From Burkholderiales bacterium (GTDB lineage: Bacteria > Pseudomonadota > Gammaproteobacteria > Burkholderiales > Usitatibacteraceae): 64,000 nucleotides of DNA. A program made the position numbers and the translations under genes. A model generated the notes under the pieces. That model was not told where the DNA came from. It saw only the letters and a list, made by a program, of their open reading frames with translations, and made no database searches. Shown here in pieces: positions 18,076 through 37,052 of this stretch. The first letter of the stretch is position 1. Each line of letters starts with the position of its first letter. The stretch spans positions 1 to 64,000 of the forward strand of contig JANYDB010000059.1 in assembly GCA_025359985.1 (NCBI GenBank), written 5' to 3'.

Positions 18076-18762
18076 TCAAAACGTCATACAAACCGTATAG
18101 CCAGTGTTGTCGTCAACCGCTGTAGTAACGGTAGCTGCAACGGGTGCTGCTACTGCAGCACCCACTACAAGATCACGAACTCGAATTGATCCTGTTGCCG
18201 TATTGCCATCGTCTAGAGTGGTGTCAAGCTGCTTGGCGTATTTGCCCAGGATGGTGCTGGAACAAAATACATAAGTACCTGACATGCCGATAATCGGGGT
18301 CTGCGCAACAGTAGCACTGGTAATACCAATACGACCACCCTCTACATTCTGTGGATAGTAGCCGGGCAGCGTGGCTGGATCAGTTGGCCCTGCAGCAAAG
18401 TTTGTAGCGCGAACAGCACGCCAGAACTTGGCGGACTCATCGGTCGCGGTTTCCGAATTCCACTCGCCATCAATACGACCGTTAGCATTCCCATTGTCGC
18501 CTGCTGTAGGCGCTGGCGCTGTGCCACTTGGCAAATTGGTAAGTGCCCTACCGTCATCACCGGGAATAGCCTTAAAACGGTCTTGATAGCCATAAATATA
18601 GAGCGGGATCGTTTTGAAATCTTGCGCAAGGTTTTTCACCTTCGCACTATTGATCAACTCTTGCCCTTTTAAAATACCGCCAAGCAACAGCCCGATGATC
18701 ACGAGCACAATGGCAATCTCGACGAGCGTAAAGCCTGATTGTTGGTTTTTCATACTTTTCAT
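18076..18762 (-). CDS. Type IV prepilin-like protein, candidate major pilin
   Basis: MKSMKNQQSG|FTLVEIAIVLVIIGLLLGGIL class III signal peptide with Glu5; AAGGA RBS upstream of the chosen ATG at 18762; dedicated promoter and terminator. Confidence 0.88.
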   Translation of the reverse strand: MKSMKNQQSGFTLVEIAIVLVIIGLLLGGILKGQELINSAKVKNLAQDFKTIPLYIYGYQDRFKAIPGDDGRALTNLPSGTAPAPTAGDNGNANGRIDGEWNSETATDESAKFWRAVRATNFAAGPTDPATLPGYYPQNVEGGRIGITSATVAQTPIIGMSGTYVFCSSTILGKYAKQLDTTLDDGNTATGSIRVRDLVVGAAVAAPVAATVTTAVDDNTGYTVCMTF

Positions 18763-18907: not shown

Positions 18908-18924
18908 TGCAAAGGCTGTGCCAA
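18908..18924 (-). promoter_or_regulatory. Sigma-54 (-24/-12) promoter for the pilin-like gene
   Basis: Minus strand TTGGCACAGCCTTTGCA versus YTGGCACGRNNNTTGCW: one mismatch, correct GG-N10-GC spacing. Confidence 0.87.
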
Positions 18925-18996
18925 CTATTTAACTTGTTGTTTATGCATTACTTTAGCTATGCCATGTCATGCAAAAACCTTTAATCGGCATAGGCG

Positions 18997-19036
18997 TGTC
19001 GAGACTTGAGACAGGCTAATGTCCAAATTCTCGACA
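18997..19036. promoter_or_regulatory. Pair of TGTC-N9-GACA dyads, putative enhancer-binding sites for a sigma-54 activator
   Basis: TGTCGAGACTTGAGACA (18997-19013) and TGTCCAAATTCTCGACA (19020-19036); the second is an inverted copy of the first (14/17 identical after reverse complement). Confidence 0.65.
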
Positions 19037-19181: not shown

Positions 19182-20951
19182 ATGCATTCCGCACTCAATT
19201 CATCGAAAAAAAATCGGGCTTCAACGCTGCCAAGTTTTTTGCTTAAGGCGCGCCGCTGGGTCATCCTGGCGATGTTGCTCTCGTTGCATGCGGGTTTGAT
19301 GGCGCCGACGGGCAGTGATTTTGAGCGGATTTGGCTACTCGTTCATTTCGGTTTGTTTTTAATGTGGCAGCCGTTTATCAGCGCGGACCGCGAGCTGAAT
19401 GTGGTAGCCGTAGTCATGCTGTTGGGTATCACTACGGTTGTAATGTATTCGCTGGCAGGATGGATGTTGGTGGCATGGGTCGCGATTTTGATTGGCATCA
19501 TGGGCGGCAAAGTATTTACCCTGCAGGCAGCGCGGCGTGGACGATTTTATTTGGTAGCCGTATTTTATTTATTTGCCGTGCTACTGACCTGGACAGTGCC
19601 GGTTTCGCTGTTGAGTATTGGCAGCCTGCCGCCGGGCTTACAAACACTGGTGGCCGTGTTTTTACCACTCACCTTGGGCGCACTGGTGTTTTTACCTTTC
19701 CAGGGCAAAGACGAAGCCACCACCCAGGTGTTTGATTTTTTCTATAGCCTGTTTGTGTTTCAGTTGGTGGTGGTACTGGTCCTCGGCAGCATTGCTGCGA
19801 TGCGGGTTACTGATAATAAATATTTTCAGGCGGTACTACTCACGGTGCTGGCGTTTGCGGTAGCGTTATTTATCCTCTCGGTGATGTGGGGGCCACGCGC
19901 GGGCTTTGGCGGATTGCGCACTTATTTTTCACGATACCTGATGACGGTGGGCATGCCGTTTGAGTTGTGGATGCGCCGTATCGCAGCACTCTCGGAAACG
20001 GAAAGTAGCTCAGCGCGTTTTCTGGCGCTCGCGATGGAAGAGGTTTCGCTAACGCCCTGGATTGTCGGCAGTGAATGGAAATCGGCCGATGCGGAAATGG
20101 ATGATGACAAGAAAGGCCGCTTTGGTAAACAGACCAACCATTCAGCCAGCTTTCGATATCACGAACTGGAGATTATTTTTTTCACCGAGATCAGGCTCTC
20201 ACCCGCGCTATTCCTGCATCTGCGATTACTAGCACAGGTGGTTGGTGAATTCTATGAGGGCAAGCGCCGTGAGCAGGTGCTTAAGCAAAATGCGTATATG
20301 CAAGCTGTGCATGAAACCGGCGCACGTTTAACCCATGACATTAAAAATTTATTGCAATCGCTTTACGCGCTGACTTCTGCTGGTGTCGCACAACAGCAAG
20401 CTAATCTGCCCGAAACAGATCGCCGCAAATCATCTGCCTATGAAGCGATGCTGAATCGGCAGCTACCGCAGCTCAGTAAACGCCTGCAAACCACACTGGA
20501 TAAACTACAAAACCCAGCGATCGGTAAAGCCGGCGTGGCAATGAGCGCAAACGATTGGTGGGCTGATATAACCGCTCGCCATGTCAGCAGCGGCGCGACT
20601 TTCAAGGCGCGCGGCGATATGAATCTCATCATTCCCGCCTCGCTATTCGACACGGTGCTGGAAAACTGTTTGGAAAACGCCCGCAAGAAAAAAGACCGTG
20701 AGCCTGATATTTTTATCAGCGTCGAGCTATCAACCGAGCCCACGCCATCACTCGCGATTATTGATAGCGGTAGCCCGATTCCCAGCGGCATGATCGAAAA
20801 TTTATTTGATGCCCCCGTCGCAAACTCACGACGTGGCGGGCTGGGTATTGGGCTTTACCAAACCAGCCAACTAGCAGAGCAGCAAGGCTATTGGCTAGCG
20901 CTCGCTGCCAATCAATTGGGAAATGTTAAGTTCAAGGTGGCGAGACGATAG
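19182..20951 (+). CDS. Membrane sensor histidine kinase with HDxKN H-box
   Basis: Multiple N-terminal TM helices; ETGARLTHDIKNLLQSLYAL H-box; VLENCLENARKKK N-box; GGLGIGLYQT G-box. Confidence 0.88.
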   Translation: MHSALNSSKKNRASTLPSFLLKARRWVILAMLLSLHAGLMAPTGSDFERIWLLVHFGLFLMWQPFISADRELNVVAVVMLLGITTVVMYSLAGWMLVAWVAILIGIMGGKVFTLQAARRGRFYLVAVFYLFAVLLTWTVPVSLLSIGSLPPGLQTLVAVFLPLTLGALVFLPFQGKDEATTQVFDFFYSLFVFQLVVVLVLGSIAAMRVTDNKYFQAVLLTVLAFAVALFILSVMWGPRAGFGGLRTYFSRYLMTVGMPFELWMRRIAALSETESSSARFLALAMEEVSLTPWIVGSEWKSADAEMDDDKKGRFGKQTNHSASFRYHELEIIFFTEIRLSPALFLHLRLLAQVVGEFYEGKRREQVLKQNAYMQAVHETGARLTHDIKNLLQSLYALTSAGVAQQQANLPETDRRKSSAYEAMLNRQLPQLSKRLQTTLDKLQNPAIGKAGVAMSANDWWADITARHVSSGATFKARGDMNLIIPASLFDTVLENCLENARKKKDREPDIFISVELSTEPTPSLAIIDSGSPIPSGMIENLFDAPVANSRRGGLGIGLYQTSQLAEQQGYWLALAANQLGNVKFKVARR

Positions 20952-21801: not shown

Positions 21802-23820
21802 TCAAGGTGAAACTACAAACACTTGATCGTTTATGACTGGATTTGTTGTGAGTCCAGATGCGGAGAAAGCACAACTAGAACCTGCCGAAAAATTGGGCTC
21901 TTCAAGATAATCAGCAAGAGACGGGCTGGGCCGGGTTTGCGAGGGGAGTCGTCCGCCCGCAAGGATTGCAAGAAACGCGATGTTGCCGGTACTGCCCGAC
22001 GTCAATTTTGTTACGCTCCCGCATGGTGTTACCGGAGACGGCGCGTTTGCAGGCGCGACTGCTGCAAACGCTGAAAGATACCATTCGTTTGAATAGAACC
22101 AATAGGGCATCAGTGGCTGATATCGCATTTTGTTTACGAACGCGAGTTTATTCGCCGCATTAATTCTTGCCGTCTCGCTTGTGCCCGCAATCGCTGCGCC
22201 ACCGGTTGTAAAAAGCGAATAGGCCACGTCAATATAAAAAGCGGTACCACTATTCACCGAACTGCATTGCCAATTCCACCTTGAAAAATCTGATACTGAT
22301 CCTGATGCAGCCGCATACGTTACCGTTGGCAAAGAATTGCAAGTGGCACCGATTGCAACAGTAATCGACGTTGGCTTAATTACATATGTTGATGTAGCCC
22401 CGGATAGCGTAGAGCATGAGGCTGAAGTGTACTGAGCGAAAGTCTGGGTTGAAGATAATGGTGTTGAATTTGTGTAGTCACACGTGACTGCGGAGGGGCC
22501 GTTAACTTGCCACGCGCATGTTGGGTTGGCGCCCGATGCCGAACCCGTTTTATACAAGCTCAACAAAAATTGCCTAGTATCCACGTACAGCCCGCCGCCA
22601 GTATCGACACAATTTTTGGTAAGCGCCGCACTTGGTATCGACCAATCAAAATCAGTTGAAACAGAGGGGGCAGTAGTCCCCACTGAAGGCATAACGGTGA
22701 AAGGGAACAAACCAAATGTACTGTTTGCGGTGGACTTGAATGCCGAAATATTCGTAGGCGATGTGAAGGGCGCCATCCATGGGTATTGGCCGATACCCGT
22801 TGTATTATAAAAATTAATGGTGGCTGATTTCATCTCTGACAATACTCTACGTTCCAAATAGGGCATCAACTCATCAATGGTGATGTAAACCAATACATCG
22901 TTAAATTTTATGGGCTGCCCTGCGAGAGAAGCATTTTCAGCGTTTGTGGGATATTTCGTACCGAGAGGAATCTGTACGAAAACATTTGATAAATTAGCGT
23001 TGTCGTAAGTGCCCGTACAAGAGCTTACACAACCCAGTGGCAGTGATATGGCATCCAAATAATCTGTCACATTTGGATAAGTGGCTAATCGACTTTGGGT
23101 TCTGCTTCCAGTCTCTATGGGCGGGCCTGGCATGATCAGTACTGCAGCAACGTTGGACACTGTTTTTCCATACTGATCAACCACAGACATCCATGGATAG
23201 GGCAATTTGTTTGCAGCGGCTGGACAGCTGGGTACACCACTTACCGCCCAATTAACCGTGTCAGAATTTAAGATTGCCAAACACTTGTTCCAATAATTTA
23301 AATTAGACGATATTGCCAGCCAGGGAACTTGACCAGTAGGATCGTTAGTGTCCGGGTTACCGACATCAAGGCTAAAATCTCGCCACGGAAATTTCCCTAA
23401 ACAACGCTGAGAAGGTTGAAGTGATGATGTGCTTGTCGCCACTCCAGGGATCCCATTTGGTAAGTTTGAAAGGCATTTATTTGATGCATTTACGTCGCCG
23501 TTTCCATCGCCGTATCCGTCGTATTTAATTTGGGTTCCCGCCTTATTTAAAATATCAGGAATGGGCAAATTTCCAAGGCGATACCCACTACCTCCATCAG
23601 TACCCTGCAACACATAGCCCAGCAGCGCCGCCTTCGCAGCCAACAACACATCATTCGCTGCCTGCGCTTGTGCTACCTGCCGTTGCGACCCGCTCAGCGA
23701 AGTGCCCACACCATTCAAAAAAACCACGCCGGCAATAGCCAACATGGTCAACACAATCAGCAGCAACACAAACCCTTGTGCGGGTCGTTTCAGGCTTTTC
23801 TTGTTCGCGGGTATTTTCAT
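21802..23820 (-). CDS. Large prepilin-like protein (PilX/GspK-like N-terminus), possible tip subunit
   Basis: RPAQG|FVLLLIVLTMLAIAGVVFLNGVG hydrophobic N-terminus without Glu5; 672 aa, many Cys. Confidence 0.6.
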   Translation of the reverse strand: MKIPANKKSLKRPAQGFVLLLIVLTMLAIAGVVFLNGVGTSLSGSQRQVAQAQAANDVLLAAKAALLGYVLQGTDGGSGYRLGNLPIPDILNKAGTQIKYDGYGDGNGDVNASNKCLSNLPNGIPGVATSTSSLQPSQRCLGKFPWRDFSLDVGNPDTNDPTGQVPWLAISSNLNYWNKCLAILNSDTVNWAVSGVPSCPAAANKLPYPWMSVVDQYGKTVSNVAAVLIMPGPPIETGSRTQSRLATYPNVTDYLDAISLPLGCVSSCTGTYDNANLSNVFVQIPLGTKYPTNAENASLAGQPIKFNDVLVYITIDELMPYLERRVLSEMKSATINFYNTTGIGQYPWMAPFTSPTNISAFKSTANSTFGLFPFTVMPSVGTTAPSVSTDFDWSIPSAALTKNCVDTGGGLYVDTRQFLLSLYKTGSASGANPTCAWQVNGPSAVTCDYTNSTPLSSTQTFAQYTSASCSTLSGATSTYVIKPTSITVAIGATCNSLPTVTYAAASGSVSDFSRWNWQCSSVNSGTAFYIDVAYSLFTTGGAAIAGTSETARINAANKLAFVNKMRYQPLMPYWFYSNEWYLSAFAAVAPANAPSPVTPCGSVTKLTSGSTGNIAFLAILAGGRLPSQTRPSPSLADYLEEPNFSAGSSCAFSASGLTTNPVINDQVFVVSP

Positions 23821-30003: not shown

Positions 30004-31578
30004 TTAACTCGTCTTGGAAGCCGCCGTCAGCTCACCAATTCGACGCTGCACAGAGGCGCGATCAAACTGCCCGCCGGTTTTTCCTGATTGAACTAGCGCT
30101 TTCTGGTAATAGTCAAGTGCGAGCTTTATTTGATTGAGCTGATCCAAGCTGACAGCCAGGTTGTATAAATAATCGGCACTGGCTGAATCGATTCGATACG
30201 CTTCGAAATAAGCTTGCTGAGCTTCAGTCCAGCGTTTCTGGCCCGCGTATAAATTGCCCAATGAAAATTGTAACGATGCGGAATCCGGTGTTTTTGAAAT
30301 CAGGGTTTTTAGTTCACCCTCTAACGACTCCGGTTTCACTTCGCTGCTTACCGCCAGCAGGCCTGATATTGCGCTGCTATTGCGCGGATCTATTTCCAGC
30401 GCCCGCCGATAATGCCTGGCGGCAGTCGAATTATCACCCGTGCGCGCGGCCGCTGTCGCCAATCCGAGCTGTGCATCCAAATTAAAAGGTTCCGCTTGCG
30501 CAACTTCGGTATAGCGCTGCTTTGCTTGCGCATAATCGCCGCGGCCAAGCGCGGTGTACGCCGCCAATAGGACAGGGTTGACTTTGGGTGGCTCAATTGT
30601 CTGTGACAGCCTGAGGCTAACCGGCGCTTCTTTTGCTGAACGGGTCGCGCTGGACGCAATTAATCGTTTAGCCAGAAACTCGCGTTCGGTCAGTGTTGGG
30701 CCGTTCACTATTTGCCTGGTTGATGCCAATTTAGGAAGCGGCATTTCCTTGGCGGGCGGCGGCAATAATGGTGGAAGCGCCAGCTCTGTGACGATGATGA
30801 CCGGCGCTACGTCAGCCGATTTGGCTGCGACCGAATTGCCCGCGGGAGCAGCTGCTGATGGGCCGGAATTCGGCGAGACATTGCTGGCGCGGGAAGCGGT
30901 TGTAACATACGTAGAACGTGACGAAATAGTCACCTGATTCCATACATACCAACCACCCGCGCCTATGGCTACCAGGGCGAATGCAATCACGGGCAGCAAC
31001 CATTTTGCCGGACGCGACGTGGCTGAAATTTTCTTCGAATTTTGTTTCGCTGCAAAAACGTTTTTGGCTACATCACGCTGCATGGACTCCTGCACGGCGG
31101 ATAAATCTGCCAACTCCTCCATGCTCCAGTCCACTTGCGCGTTTTGTCTAGATAGGGCGGATGTCTCGCTTGATGGCGGAGCCTGATTGGATGCCATTCT
31201 CGTACCCGCGGGTGTATGTGCACGCGTGCCACTCGGTGTCCGTACGCCAGTGGGTGTACGCGTGTCGATGGACAAGTCTGCGCCGCGCGTTTCGACCGCG
31301 CCAATTTGTGTCGCCTCGTCCATCAAGGATAACGGGCGATGATGAGCAACGCCCGCTGATGGCTCTAACAACACGTTATTCGATGAAATTTTTGGCGAGG
31401 GTATTTGTACTGTCCCAGGCTGAACATGCGGCGGCTCATGCAAGTTCTCAAGTGAGAGATCTGCTTGAGCTTGTGATTCTGCTGCATTTGAGGACGTCGG
31501 CTCTAAATGGGATGAGTCACTTTTTTTTGCGCGTTTGGCATCTTCCGCGCGCTTTAGTGCGTCGAGCAGAAGACTCAC
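30004..31578 (-). CDS. TPR-containing membrane protein, MshN-like
   Basis: MSLLLDALKRAEDAKRAK N-terminus, one TM (WLLPVIAFALVAIGAGGWYVW), C-terminal TPR repeats. Confidence 0.75.
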   Translation of the reverse strand: MSLLLDALKRAEDAKRAKKSDSSHLEPTSSNAAESQAQADLSLENLHEPPHVQPGTVQIPSPKISSNNVLLEPSAGVAHHRPLSLMDEATQIGAVETRGADLSIDTRTPTGVRTPSGTRAHTPAGTRMASNQAPPSSETSALSRQNAQVDWSMEELADLSAVQESMQRDVAKNVFAAKQNSKKISATSRPAKWLLPVIAFALVAIGAGGWYVWNQVTISSRSTYVTTASRASNVSPNSGPSAAAPAGNSVAAKSADVAPVIIVTELALPPLLPPPAKEMPLPKLASTRQIVNGPTLTEREFLAKRLIASSATRSAKEAPVSLRLSQTIEPPKVNPVLLAAYTALGRGDYAQAKQRYTEVAQAEPFNLDAQLGLATAAARTGDNSTAARHYRRALEIDPRNSSAISGLLAVSSEVKPESLEGELKTLISKTPDSASLQFSLGNLYAGQKRWTEAQQAYFEAYRIDSASADYLYNLAVSLDQLNQIKLALDYYQKALVQSGKTGGQFDRASVQRRIGELTAASKTS

Positions 31579-33587
31579 GGCGTGGGCCTTACCGGAGAAG
31601 AAATAGATGTTGCATCATCGCGCGTATCCGTTTTGGGATACAACGACGGAATTAATGGCTCAGCCTCTTTGAAAAATTGGCGATCCGGCAGCAGCCGACG
31701 ATAGTCCGAAAAATCGGTTTCGACGCTGGCGTCCTTAATGACCAACGGACGCAAGAAAATCACGAGCTCTGTTTTGCGACCGGTATCGTTACGATAGCTG
31801 ACGGCATCCCCAAATAATTTCCATCTCGAAATGATCGGCAAACCATCGCGTGAAGCGGAAAAACTATCCTGCATCAGCCCACCCAAAACGGCAGTTTGGC
31901 CACTAGCCACCCGTAACACCGTTTCGAATTCACGAGTCTGAATCTGCGGCACTCTATTGATCACATTGGCTCTGGCCAAATCGGGATTGGGGTCATTTAC
32001 ATAGCTTACAATACGGGTAATGCTAGGCCGCACGTTAAGCGTAATGATATCGCCTTCGCTGATCTGCGCCGTGACATTCATTACGAATCCTTCAGGCACG
32101 ACATTCGGTGTAGACGTATACGAAACCAGCGCTGTAGATACGCCAGCAGCATTGGTAGTGCCCGTGGTCACATCCGCTTTCACAGTAAAATAAACTTTGT
32201 TCTCCACCACTTTCATCACCGCTGTCTGGTTATTCAGCGTCGTGATACGCGGGCTCGATAGCACCTTGGTTGAACCAAATGAATCAAGCAGTTTGATACT
32301 GCTGGATATCGAGCCGCCGACAGCCGCGTTGGGATTGCTATATTGAATGCCGAAGAACGGAGCACTAGCGAGGTTTTGGCCGGTGAACGCTTGCGTAAAT
32401 GAATAACCAACGCCTTTAAGACCTAACGCCGACCAATCTACGCCAGACTGATAATTGTCATTTAGCGTGACCTCAACCACGGTTGCTTCAATCAACACTT
32501 GGCGACTTGCTGCACCTGCTACTTGGGAGATAAATTCTGCCACTTTTTCGTGCTGGCGGGAGGTCGCACGAACCGAGACGGTACCGGTTTCAGGATTGAT
32601 AATAACCGAAGCCGCTTCACGAAACGTGAGCCGCTGCTCGACTGATTCATTAACCGAATCCCCTTGGGTTATACCCGGGCCGGTGACTTGGGTTGAGGCC
32701 GCGGTATTGTTGCGACGCGGCTGATTGCGTTGCTGCGCCTGGGTAGTGGCCGACTGTTGGGCTCCGCGTGCCTGTACAAAAGTTTCCGAGCTGCCTTCGG
32801 GCAGTTGTTTATCCGTTTCACGCAGTAATTCTTTGACGTTTTTATCCAATGATTCCCAAAAACGGTTCTTTGAGGCGTTGTCAATTTTAAGCTGTGTGCT
32901 GTTTTGCGCGCCGCCCGCACCGGCCGCTCCTGCCCCCACACCTGCAGGACCTACAACCTGGGTTTGAATGCCAATGGAGCCCGATGAATCGCGCGTCATA
33001 TTAACGTAATCAACTTTATAAAGCTTGAGATAGGGAGAGTCCGGCATCACCACCAAATTAGGCCCGTCAACCTCAAAGCGCATATCAACTTGCTTGGAAA
33101 TGCGAGTTAAAATTTGTTTAAGTGTTTGGTCGATGGCATTAAGCGTGACTCGCCCTTCGATACCGTTATGCACATCAATATTGACCTTGGTGTCTCGGCT
33201 GATCGCAAATAATAAATCCTGCACGGGCACATCTTTAACCGTAACCGAATAACGGATTTCATCAATGCGCGATTGCGGAGGTGGTGGCAACGGTACTTGA
33301 CGTACCGGCTGCGGAATAGCGGCGGATGACTTCGAACCAGGTCTGGCCGAATCATTTACATCGCCTCGCAAATGGCCGTCAATCTTGGCAACCGGCGCGG
33401 CACCGCAGGCCGTCAACCCTGCTGCCACTAATAGCGACACCGGCATGCGGAACGCGACGCTCGCTTGCGTGGCGTCAACCTTTAACGAAAACGGCTTACC
33501 TTTAACTTTGCGAGCTAACGCTGGTATCAGCACAGACGGTCCCCGATAAGAGCTGTTAAATAAAATTCGTTGCAATAAATTAAGCAT
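31575..33587 (-). CDS. MshL-family pilus secretin (lipoprotein-like)
   Basis: LTAC lipobox; VPVQDLLFAISRDTKVNIDVH secretin N domain; VLIEATVVEVTLNDNYQSGVDW; VPQIQTREFETVLRVASGQTAVLGGLMQD. Confidence 0.9.
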   Translation of the reverse strand: MLNLLQRILFNSSYRGPSVLIPALARKVKGKPFSLKVDATQASVAFRMPVSLLVAAGLTACGAAPVAKIDGHLRGDVNDSARPGSKSSAAIPQPVRQVPLPPPPQSRIDEIRYSVTVKDVPVQDLLFAISRDTKVNIDVHNGIEGRVTLNAIDQTLKQILTRISKQVDMRFEVDGPNLVVMPDSPYLKLYKVDYVNMTRDSSGSIGIQTQVVGPAGVGAGAAGAGGAQNSTQLKIDNASKNRFWESLDKNVKELLRETDKQLPEGSSETFVQARGAQQSATTQAQQRNQPRRNNTAASTQVTGPGITQGDSVNESVEQRLTFREAASVIINPETGTVSVRATSRQHEKVAEFISQVAGAASRQVLIEATVVEVTLNDNYQSGVDWSALGLKGVGYSFTQAFTGQNLASAPFFGIQYSNPNAAVGGSISSSIKLLDSFGSTKVLSSPRITTLNNQTAVMKVVENKVYFTVKADVTTGTTNAAGVSTALVSYTSTPNVVPEGFVMNVTAQISEGDIITLNVRPSITRIVSYVNDPNPDLARANVINRVPQIQTREFETVLRVASGQTAVLGGLMQDSFSASRDGLPIISRWKLFGDAVSYRNDTGRKTELVIFLRPLVIKDASVETDFSDYRRLLPDRQFFKEAEPLIPSLYPKTDTRDDATSISSPVRPTP

Positions 33588-35540: not shown

Positions 35541-37052
35541 CTATTCTGCCTTGCCGCTGCTGGTTCGCAATGCGTCCAGACGGCTGTACAGAGTGGAGCG
35601 TGACATCCCCAGTACACGCGCTGCTTGAGACATATTGCCCTGCGCAATAGCAATCGCGGCATCAATGTACTGAAGCTCTACTTCGCGAAGCTTTACATCG
35701 AGACTGAATAAGGCGCTTTTTTCAATATCAGCACGCGCATCAACATTGCTGCCAATGGCATCTCCCTTAGCGAGAGCGCCATATATCGGCTGATTTGAAA
35801 CATCCTCAACTGTCGAGAAGGATTCAAATTCCGACAGCAGATCAGACAAGCCAACGGTATAACCCGCGTATTTAGCGGTCAAGCGAATCACGATATTTTT
35901 GAGCTCGCGCACATTGCCCGGGAAAGGGTATGACAACCAGGCCGCGCGTGCCGGCAAATCCAAGTCAAATGGCTGTGTTGGTTTCGCCGACGACTGAGCG
36001 GCTGCGTAGTTTGCTAAATAGTTAACGGCATATTGCAGACGATAATGTTCCATCAATTTAAGTTTGTCATCGCCAAGCTCACGCAGTGGCGGCACTGAAA
36101 TCGAAAATACAGACAGCCGATGATAGAGATCGCCGCGAAACCTGCCGGCTTTAACTTCAGTTTTTAGATCCCGATTAGTTGCGGCCACAATCCGCGCACG
36201 AGATTGTCGCGATTGCGTCTCGCCGACCCGTTGAAATTCACCATTCTCCAGAACACGCAATAACTTGGGCTGCAAATCCAGCGGTAATTCGCCGATTTCA
36301 TCCAAAAACAAAGTGCCTTCACCTGCGTCTTCAAAATAACCGGTTTTAGCTGTAGCCGCGCCCGTAAATGCGCCCTTGGCATAGCCGAATAAAGTAGGCT
36401 CTACCAGGTTAGCTGAAATGGCCGCGCAATTGAGCGCTAAAAAAGGCAATTTAGCGCGAGGGCTCAGTTCATGCAGCGCTCGGGCAACGCGCTCTTTGCC
36501 GCTACCTGACTCGCCTTCAATCAAGGCGGGGAAAGTAGACGAGGTATAAAGATCAATTTGGTTTTTCAATTTACGCATCGGCAAACTATCGCCGATCAAA
36601 CCGTGCAGCGCATCATCATGCTCAGCGGCATCTTCAGCTTTTTGCCCAGCCAAGGCGGCCAATAACAGCCGTTTTAAATGGCCGGGCTCGCAGGGTTTTG
36701 GCACCATATCCGCCGCACCGAGTGCGCGCGCACGACGCGCATTGGATTCCTCGTTTTGCCCCGACAAGACGAGGATACGAATATCTGCAGCCCACGACAG
36801 CAAATCACCGACCAGCTTGAAGCCTTCTGTAGGCGAATCGGGAAATGGCGGGAGCCCAAGATCAATCAGGGCCAGCGCAGGTTTAAACGCGCCGCTCTTG
36901 AGCAGCGCCATGGCCGCGCCGCGTGAGCTGCGAACCTCCACAACAAAATCAGCCGCCAAAACGAACGACAGGCTCTCGCCAATCAGCGGATCATCGTCGA
37001 CGATTAACAGCGTGGGCCTGGAATGGGTTATGGCTTGCGGTGCGCGCGACAC
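35541..37052 (-). CDS. Sigma-54-dependent response regulator (REC-AAA+-Fis HTH)
   Basis: LLIVDDDPLIGES receiver, GESGSGKERVARALHE, GYAKGAFTGA, C-terminal NMSQAARVLGMSRSTLYSRL HTH. Confidence 0.95.
   Translation of the reverse strand: MSRAPQAITHSRPTLLIVDDDPLIGESLSFVLAADFVVEVRSSRGAAMALLKSGAFKPALALIDLGLPPFPDSPTEGFKLVGDLLSWAADIRILVLSGQNEESNARRARALGAADMVPKPCEPGHLKRLLLAALAGQKAEDAAEHDDALHGLIGDSLPMRKLKNQIDLYTSSTFPALIEGESGSGKERVARALHELSPRAKLPFLALNCAAISANLVEPTLFGYAKGAFTGAATAKTGYFEDAGEGTLFLDEIGELPLDLQPKLLRVLENGEFQRVGETQSRQSRARIVAATNRDLKTEVKAGRFRGDLYHRLSVFSISVPPLRELGDDKLKLMEHYRLQYAVNYLANYAAAQSSAKPTQPFDLDLPARAAWLSYPFPGNVRELKNIVIRLTAKYAGYTVGLSDLLSEFESFSTVEDVSNQPIYGALAKGDAIGSNVDARADIEKSALFSLDVKLREVELQYIDAAIAIAQGNMSQAARVLGMSRSTLYSRLDALRTSSGKAE

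Follow-up and report, generated by a model that had tools for sequence, protein, structure and literature searches.

What do two TGTC-N9-GACA dyads between a pilin gene and a divergent histidine kinase gene control, and which protein would bind them? We addressed this for a locus of a Usitatibacteraceae genome (Burkholderiales), using a contig stretch of 64 kb (the window). The source lineage is represented mostly by uncultured-bacterium (MAG) records, with UKL13-2 and GR16-43 as the complete genomes returned.

Both 17-mers lie exactly where an earlier note, made from the letters alone, had placed them (Table 1). Recomputation from the sequence returned the same spacing of 23 bp between centres (also between starts) and the same 14/17 positions at which the second dyad is identical to the reverse complement of the first. 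The placement given as ~75–115 bp upstream of the -24 element was measured as 73 nt for the proximal dyad and 113 nt for the far end of the distal one. On the minus strand, toward the pilin, the order is TGTCGAGAATTTGGACA, 6 nt, TGTCTCAAGTCTCGACA, 73 nt, TGGCACAGCCTTTGC. Upstream activating sequences of sigma-54 promoters are dyads, usually paired, ~80–150 bp upstream and in helical register, and the pair at 73–113 nt has this layout. Downstream of it, TGGCACAGCCTTTGC (read from 18923 to 18909) carries the GG and GC of a -24/-12 element 10 bp apart. Reading the dyads as a previously unannotated operator of a familiar type appears sound. A literature search on PilR-type and MSHA/sigma-54 control found nothing on a TGTC-N9-GACA pilin operator.

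Table 1. Predicted features of the pilin/kinase region and the pilus cluster in the window.
Feature	Coordinates	Strand	Characteristics
Prepilin gene	18076..18762	-	Class III leader QQSGFTLVEIAIVLVIIG; Pfam N_methyl; type IV leader
Sigma-54 promoter of pilin gene (-24/-12)	18909..18923	-	TGGCACAGCCTTTGC, TGGCAC-N5-TTGC; same consensus at the pilin elsewhere
IHF-like sequence (tentative)	18930..18942	-	AAACAACAAGTTA, differing from WATCAANNNNTTR at 1 position; 6 nt before the -24 T
Proximal operator dyad	18997..19013	-	TGTCTCAAGTCTCGACA on the promoter strand; 73 nt before the -24 element; family-conserved
Distal operator dyad	19020..19036	-	TGTCGAGAATTTGGACA on the promoter strand; 96 nt before the -24 element
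Divergent multi-pass membrane histidine kinase	19182..20951	+	At least 6 hydrophobic segments; phospho-acceptor H385; distantly PrsK-like
MshL-like secretin of pilus cluster	31575..33587	-	TIGR02519, just below cut-off
NtrC-family response regulator (proposed ligand)	35541..37052	-	Receiver D64; GAFTGA at 227; Fis-type HTH

The pilin is probably translated from the ATG at 18762, which is preceded by an SD-like AAGGA, the listed ORF (to 18789) starting too early; the 5' UTR would then be ~135 nt. Sequences within one mismatch of the IHF-like WATCAANNNNTTR occur in 16/23 family promoters, usually 6–7 nt from the -24 T, against a mean of 2.3 genomes (max. 6) in shuffle controls. Their role may be to let IHF bend the DNA, or they may extend the sigma-54 promoter with AT-rich sequence.

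A lone TGTC-N9-GACA is uninformative and near background. The window holds 3 matches against 0.47 expected, a number reached by 2/100 shuffles, and the third (23349–23365, inside ORF 21802–23820) resembles background. Across the 3.43-Mb genome, 37 lone sites compare with 27 for the reversed pattern. Pairing, position and conservation, on the other hand, are informative. Two dyads within 25 nt occurred in 11 of the 61 genomes scanned, 10 of the 11 at the pilin/kinase intergenic region, and the reversed control in 2. A strict pattern (dyad, 73–103 nt, then TGGCAY-N5-TTGC) had a single match in the source genome, at the pilin promoter. It recurred in 17/61 relatives, all of the same family and every match at the pilin beside the kinase; its reversed control had 0 matches in the 61 genomes. 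The idea of a genome-wide regulon did not hold up in these pattern-based searches, with the strict pattern pointing to one promoter only, the pilin's. Among the 15 of 37 single-dyad loci checked in the source genome, a convincing sigma-54 promoter lay nearby only at the pilin locus.

Conservation in relatives was one of the points on which the earlier note had staked its reading, and the operator is kept at the pilin promoter across the family. The family sample comprised 28 genomes, 26 with a pilin sigma-54 promoter. All 26 carry at least one dyad with at least 7/8 core bases, of the N9 type in 25 and of N8 only in one (G025). The 23 family promoters taken from kinase loci contain 29 perfect N9 sites (shuffle mean 0.04), while the flanks of the sites vary widely. 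Not every copy is intact: the nearest relative by protein identity (G011) has degenerate sites only, one of 7/8 and one of about 6/8, and G001, G002 and G005 each have an imperfect copy of one site. Distances to the -24 element cluster at 73–76, 94–98 and 104–106 nt, with one outlier at 50; these steps of approximately two and three helical turns are compatible with binding on one helical face. The extended family site reads TGTCGA-N5-CGGACA, and the distal dyad of the window matches its ends (TGTCGA ... GGACA). In most of the 29 sites, the two halves differ at the fifth base (G in one, C in the other), which makes the operator pseudo-symmetric rather than perfectly symmetric. Conservation also extends beyond the family, in a form 1 bp shorter at the pilin sigma-54 promoter of other Burkholderiales. 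That the likeness of the dyads is accidental, or serves something besides transcription control, draws on the near-background frequency of lone sites. Against pairing, fixed position, 29 sites where 0.04 were expected and the empty reversed control, we give this reading hardly any credence, and conservation rules out chance itself.

The dyads lie in an intergenic region shared with the kinase gene, 145–185 bp upstream of its ATG, and could govern the kinase (auto-regulation) instead of or besides the pilin. Yet their distance to the kinase start varies from about 22 to 310 bp, whereas that to the pilin -24 is tight, and the upstream regions of the family showed no sigma-54 site on the plus strand. 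The operator also remains at the pilin wherever the two genes are apart. In G004, the pilin and kinase matches are on separate contigs, and in G006 no kinase was found; both have paired N9 sites 21 bp apart before the pilin, though as draft assemblies they make the separation less certain. In L128 and L171, the kinase lies ~1.7–1.9 kb from the pilin on the same contig, with the dyad at the pilin. The operator thus appears to go with the pilin promoter regardless of the position of the kinase gene, and control of the kinase seems very unlikely. Elsewhere, in lineages whose pilin does not adjoin the kinase (L130, L131, L134, L139, L151 and L141, L161, L165, L169), a TGGCA...TGCS block (e.g. TGGCAAGGATTTTGCG, TGGCACAATACGTGCC) is conserved on the plus strand ~140–270 bp ahead of the kinase and may be a sigma-54 promoter of the kinase itself. 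A tRNA was considered as the reason why such blocks (TGGCA...TGCC) are conserved there, and discarded, as none was found in the loci scanned.

If the dyads act on the pilin, which activator would bind them? Near the pilin gene, and on its strand, is a cluster that includes secretion ATPases, the MshL-like secretin and further pilus genes, with the NtrC-family regulator at its upstream end; the kinase gene is transcribed divergently from that of the pilin. The source genome encodes only three genuine sigma-54 activators: NtrC, which passes the TIGR01818 cut-off; a PilR-like protein, encoded beside a PilS-like kinase on contig 16; and the cluster regulator. The latter combines a receiver, an AAA+ domain with GAFTGA and a Fis-HTH, with the recognition helix MSRSTLYSRL. 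Across 61 genomes, kinase and regulator were both present in 40 and both absent in 19, each occurring alone once, in incomplete genomes (Fisher p about 1e-13, computed without phylogenetic correction). Among the environmental Betaproteobacteria matches to the kinase are MAG records titled Bordetella parapertussis (L145, L164, L166, L168), a seemingly doubtful label. The canonical pilA sigma-54 promoter of the source genome has no TGTC or GACA within 250 nt upstream, and the dyads are therefore not general to its pilin promoters. Shared distribution with the kinase, the choice of three activators and the dyad-free pilA promoter support the cluster regulator as ligand indirectly; the ~16 kb between its gene and the operator count against it.

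Two further genomes bear on the ligand. In G020, which lacks both kinase and regulator, the closest pilin homologue shares 46% identity, may be a paralogue and has neither a sigma-54 promoter nor paired dyads. In the distant G143, from another Burkholderiales family, an N9 dyad pair 22 bp apart (L222:1501–1608) directly follows the gene of another NtrC-family regulator and precedes a sigma-54 promoter. The recognition helix of that regulator, SRQSLYTKL, is similar to that of the cluster regulator; the promoter stands before a small gene resembling those of secreted proteins. The shared kinase/regulator distribution, the absence in G020 and the differences between helices are all confounded by phylogeny.

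The dyads could instead be a pilin enhancer bound by the PilR-like activator, with the PilS-like protein on contig 16 as its partner. Such a protein is indeed encoded in the genome, and Pseudomonas aeruginosa PilR sites comprise NifA-like TGTN11AGA and GTCT elements (PMC6058289); the window dyads read TGT-N11-ACA, and the proximal one holds GTCT twice. The canonical pilA promoter, however, has no such element within 250 nt. Every family genome in which the operator was seen also encodes the cluster kinase or regulator, and the recognition helices differ (ITFRSLRYRL in the PilR-like protein, SRSTLYSRL in the cluster regulator). We consider PilR-like binding unlikely.

We hypothesize, with good confidence, that the dyads are a tandem enhancer at the sigma-54 promoter of an MSHA-like pilin gene, serving the NtrC-family regulator of the cluster with the divergent kinase as its partner. 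Each dyad would bind one regulator dimer via the Fis-type HTH. With a spacing of about two helical turns, which puts both on one face of the DNA, the sites would favour the assembly of phosphorylated dimers into an active AAA+ oligomer, the membrane kinase being the likely phosphate donor. DNA looping would bring the oligomer to the sigma-54 RNA polymerase, perhaps with help from an IHF-like bend close to the -24 element on its upstream side, and the GAFTGA loop of the oligomer would there remodel the closed complex. This would define the operator of a second two-component system, distinct from PilR, that controls an MSHA-like pilus in Burkholderiales.

The most original part of the analysis, and its one new twist, is a shift in dyad spacing between families. 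At the same pilin promoter outside the source family, we found 19 TGTC-N8-GACA sites in 15/29 promoters and one N9 site (N8 in 19/20 N8/N9 sites). Inside the family, the 23 promoters held 29 N9 sites and one N8 (N9 in 29/30), and G023 adds another N8 site for the family; TGTCGAAAGGCCGACA (L132) and TGTCGAAAAGCCGGACA (G022) illustrate the difference. The recognition helix of the regulator changes in parallel, from [NH]RTTLY in nearly all others to SRSTLY in the source family. G025 combines an intermediate helix (SRTTLYGRL) with N8, and in G023 (SRSTLYGRL) N8 and N9 sites occur once each. Methylophilaceae-type loci (L135, L142, L143, L173, L175, L179) carry a diverged TTTCRTC-N5-TGACA in front of the kinase, often with TGTC direct repeats. 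The N8-to-N9 shift and the helix change ([NH]RTTLYSRM to SRSTLYSRL/SRSTLYGRL) may tentatively be read as co-evolution of regulator and operator that separated the pilus enhancer from the NifA-type TGT-N10-ACA. The parallel is suggestive only, because it represents one evolutionary transition. The lineage-wide shift from 8 to 9 bp nevertheless offers a natural series for the joint change of Fis-type HTH activators and their sites.

The locus can be compared with four known systems. PrsK/PrsR of the PEP-CTERM system likewise pairs a membrane kinase with an NtrC-family Fis-HTH regulator and a 17-nt site upstream of a -24/-12 promoter. Its predicted activator site (‘motif 1’, Haft et al. 2006, PMC1569441) is sometimes repeated, lies about 63 nt (32–92) upstream of the -24/-12 motif and ends in TTTACA. 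The window dyads, also of 17 bp, end in GACA instead, and PrsR targets are PEP-CTERM genes. Although the cluster regulator, kinase and ATPase all match PEP-CTERM system models, they do so below cut-off: the regulator scores 329.3 bits against 502.6 for TIGR02915 (PrsR), and the kinase 41 bits against 300 for the PEP-CTERM kinase model.

GlrR (QseF) of Enterobacteriaceae recognizes TGTC-N10-GACA upstream of the sigma-54 promoters of glmY/glmZ (PMC4987338, PMC8745638). The half-sites and their place before a sigma-54 promoter are the same, but the spacer here is 9 (8 in other families) rather than 10 and the target gene differs. N10 sites were absent from every promoter examined.

The NifA upstream activating sequence, TGT-N10-ACA, stands about 100 bp upstream of sigma-54 promoters (PMC2820453). 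It shares the TGT...ACA dyad, and the TGTC-N8-GACA of other families formally fits it, whereas the window dyads are TGT-N11-ACA and precede a pilin gene; no NifA was found among the sigma-54 activators of the source genome. When the N8/N9 pattern was searched in 300 genomes of the order, most classifiable matches outside the family preceded nif-type genes (nifH, nifB, nifV-like, ferredoxin), as named from translations. Other targets were few (e.g. acetone carboxylase-like, HlyD-like), with a pilin gene at only 1 of the 30 loci retrieved, and these matches were not counted as operator support. The matches before nif-type genes were rejected as pilus operators and assigned to NifA-type sites. 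In L233–L237, L242–L246 and L250, TGTC-N8-GACA lies 50–75 nt before a sigma-54 promoter, often of nif-type genes in diazotrophs. Given how common N8 is at nif-type genes, the bare N8 pattern cannot tell NifA sites from the pilus operator.

PilS/PilR of P. aeruginosa, which controls pilA, comprises a six-TM PilS, an NtrC-family regulator and a sigma-54 pilin promoter (PMC6058289). The present locus resembles it in the multi-pass membrane kinase (at least six hydrophobic segments), the regulator family and the promoter type. It differs in that the source genome has separate PilS/PilR-like proteins, the HTH of the regulator is distinct and the pilA promoter is dyad-free. We also weighed and rejected the cluster regulator as the PilR orthologue, given the separate PilR-like protein with its adjacent kinase on contig 16 and the different recognition helix. 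The architecture is that of an NtrC-family enhancer, and regulator and operator would form a pair of their own, a full match to none of PrsR, GlrR, NifA or PilR while sharing features with each.
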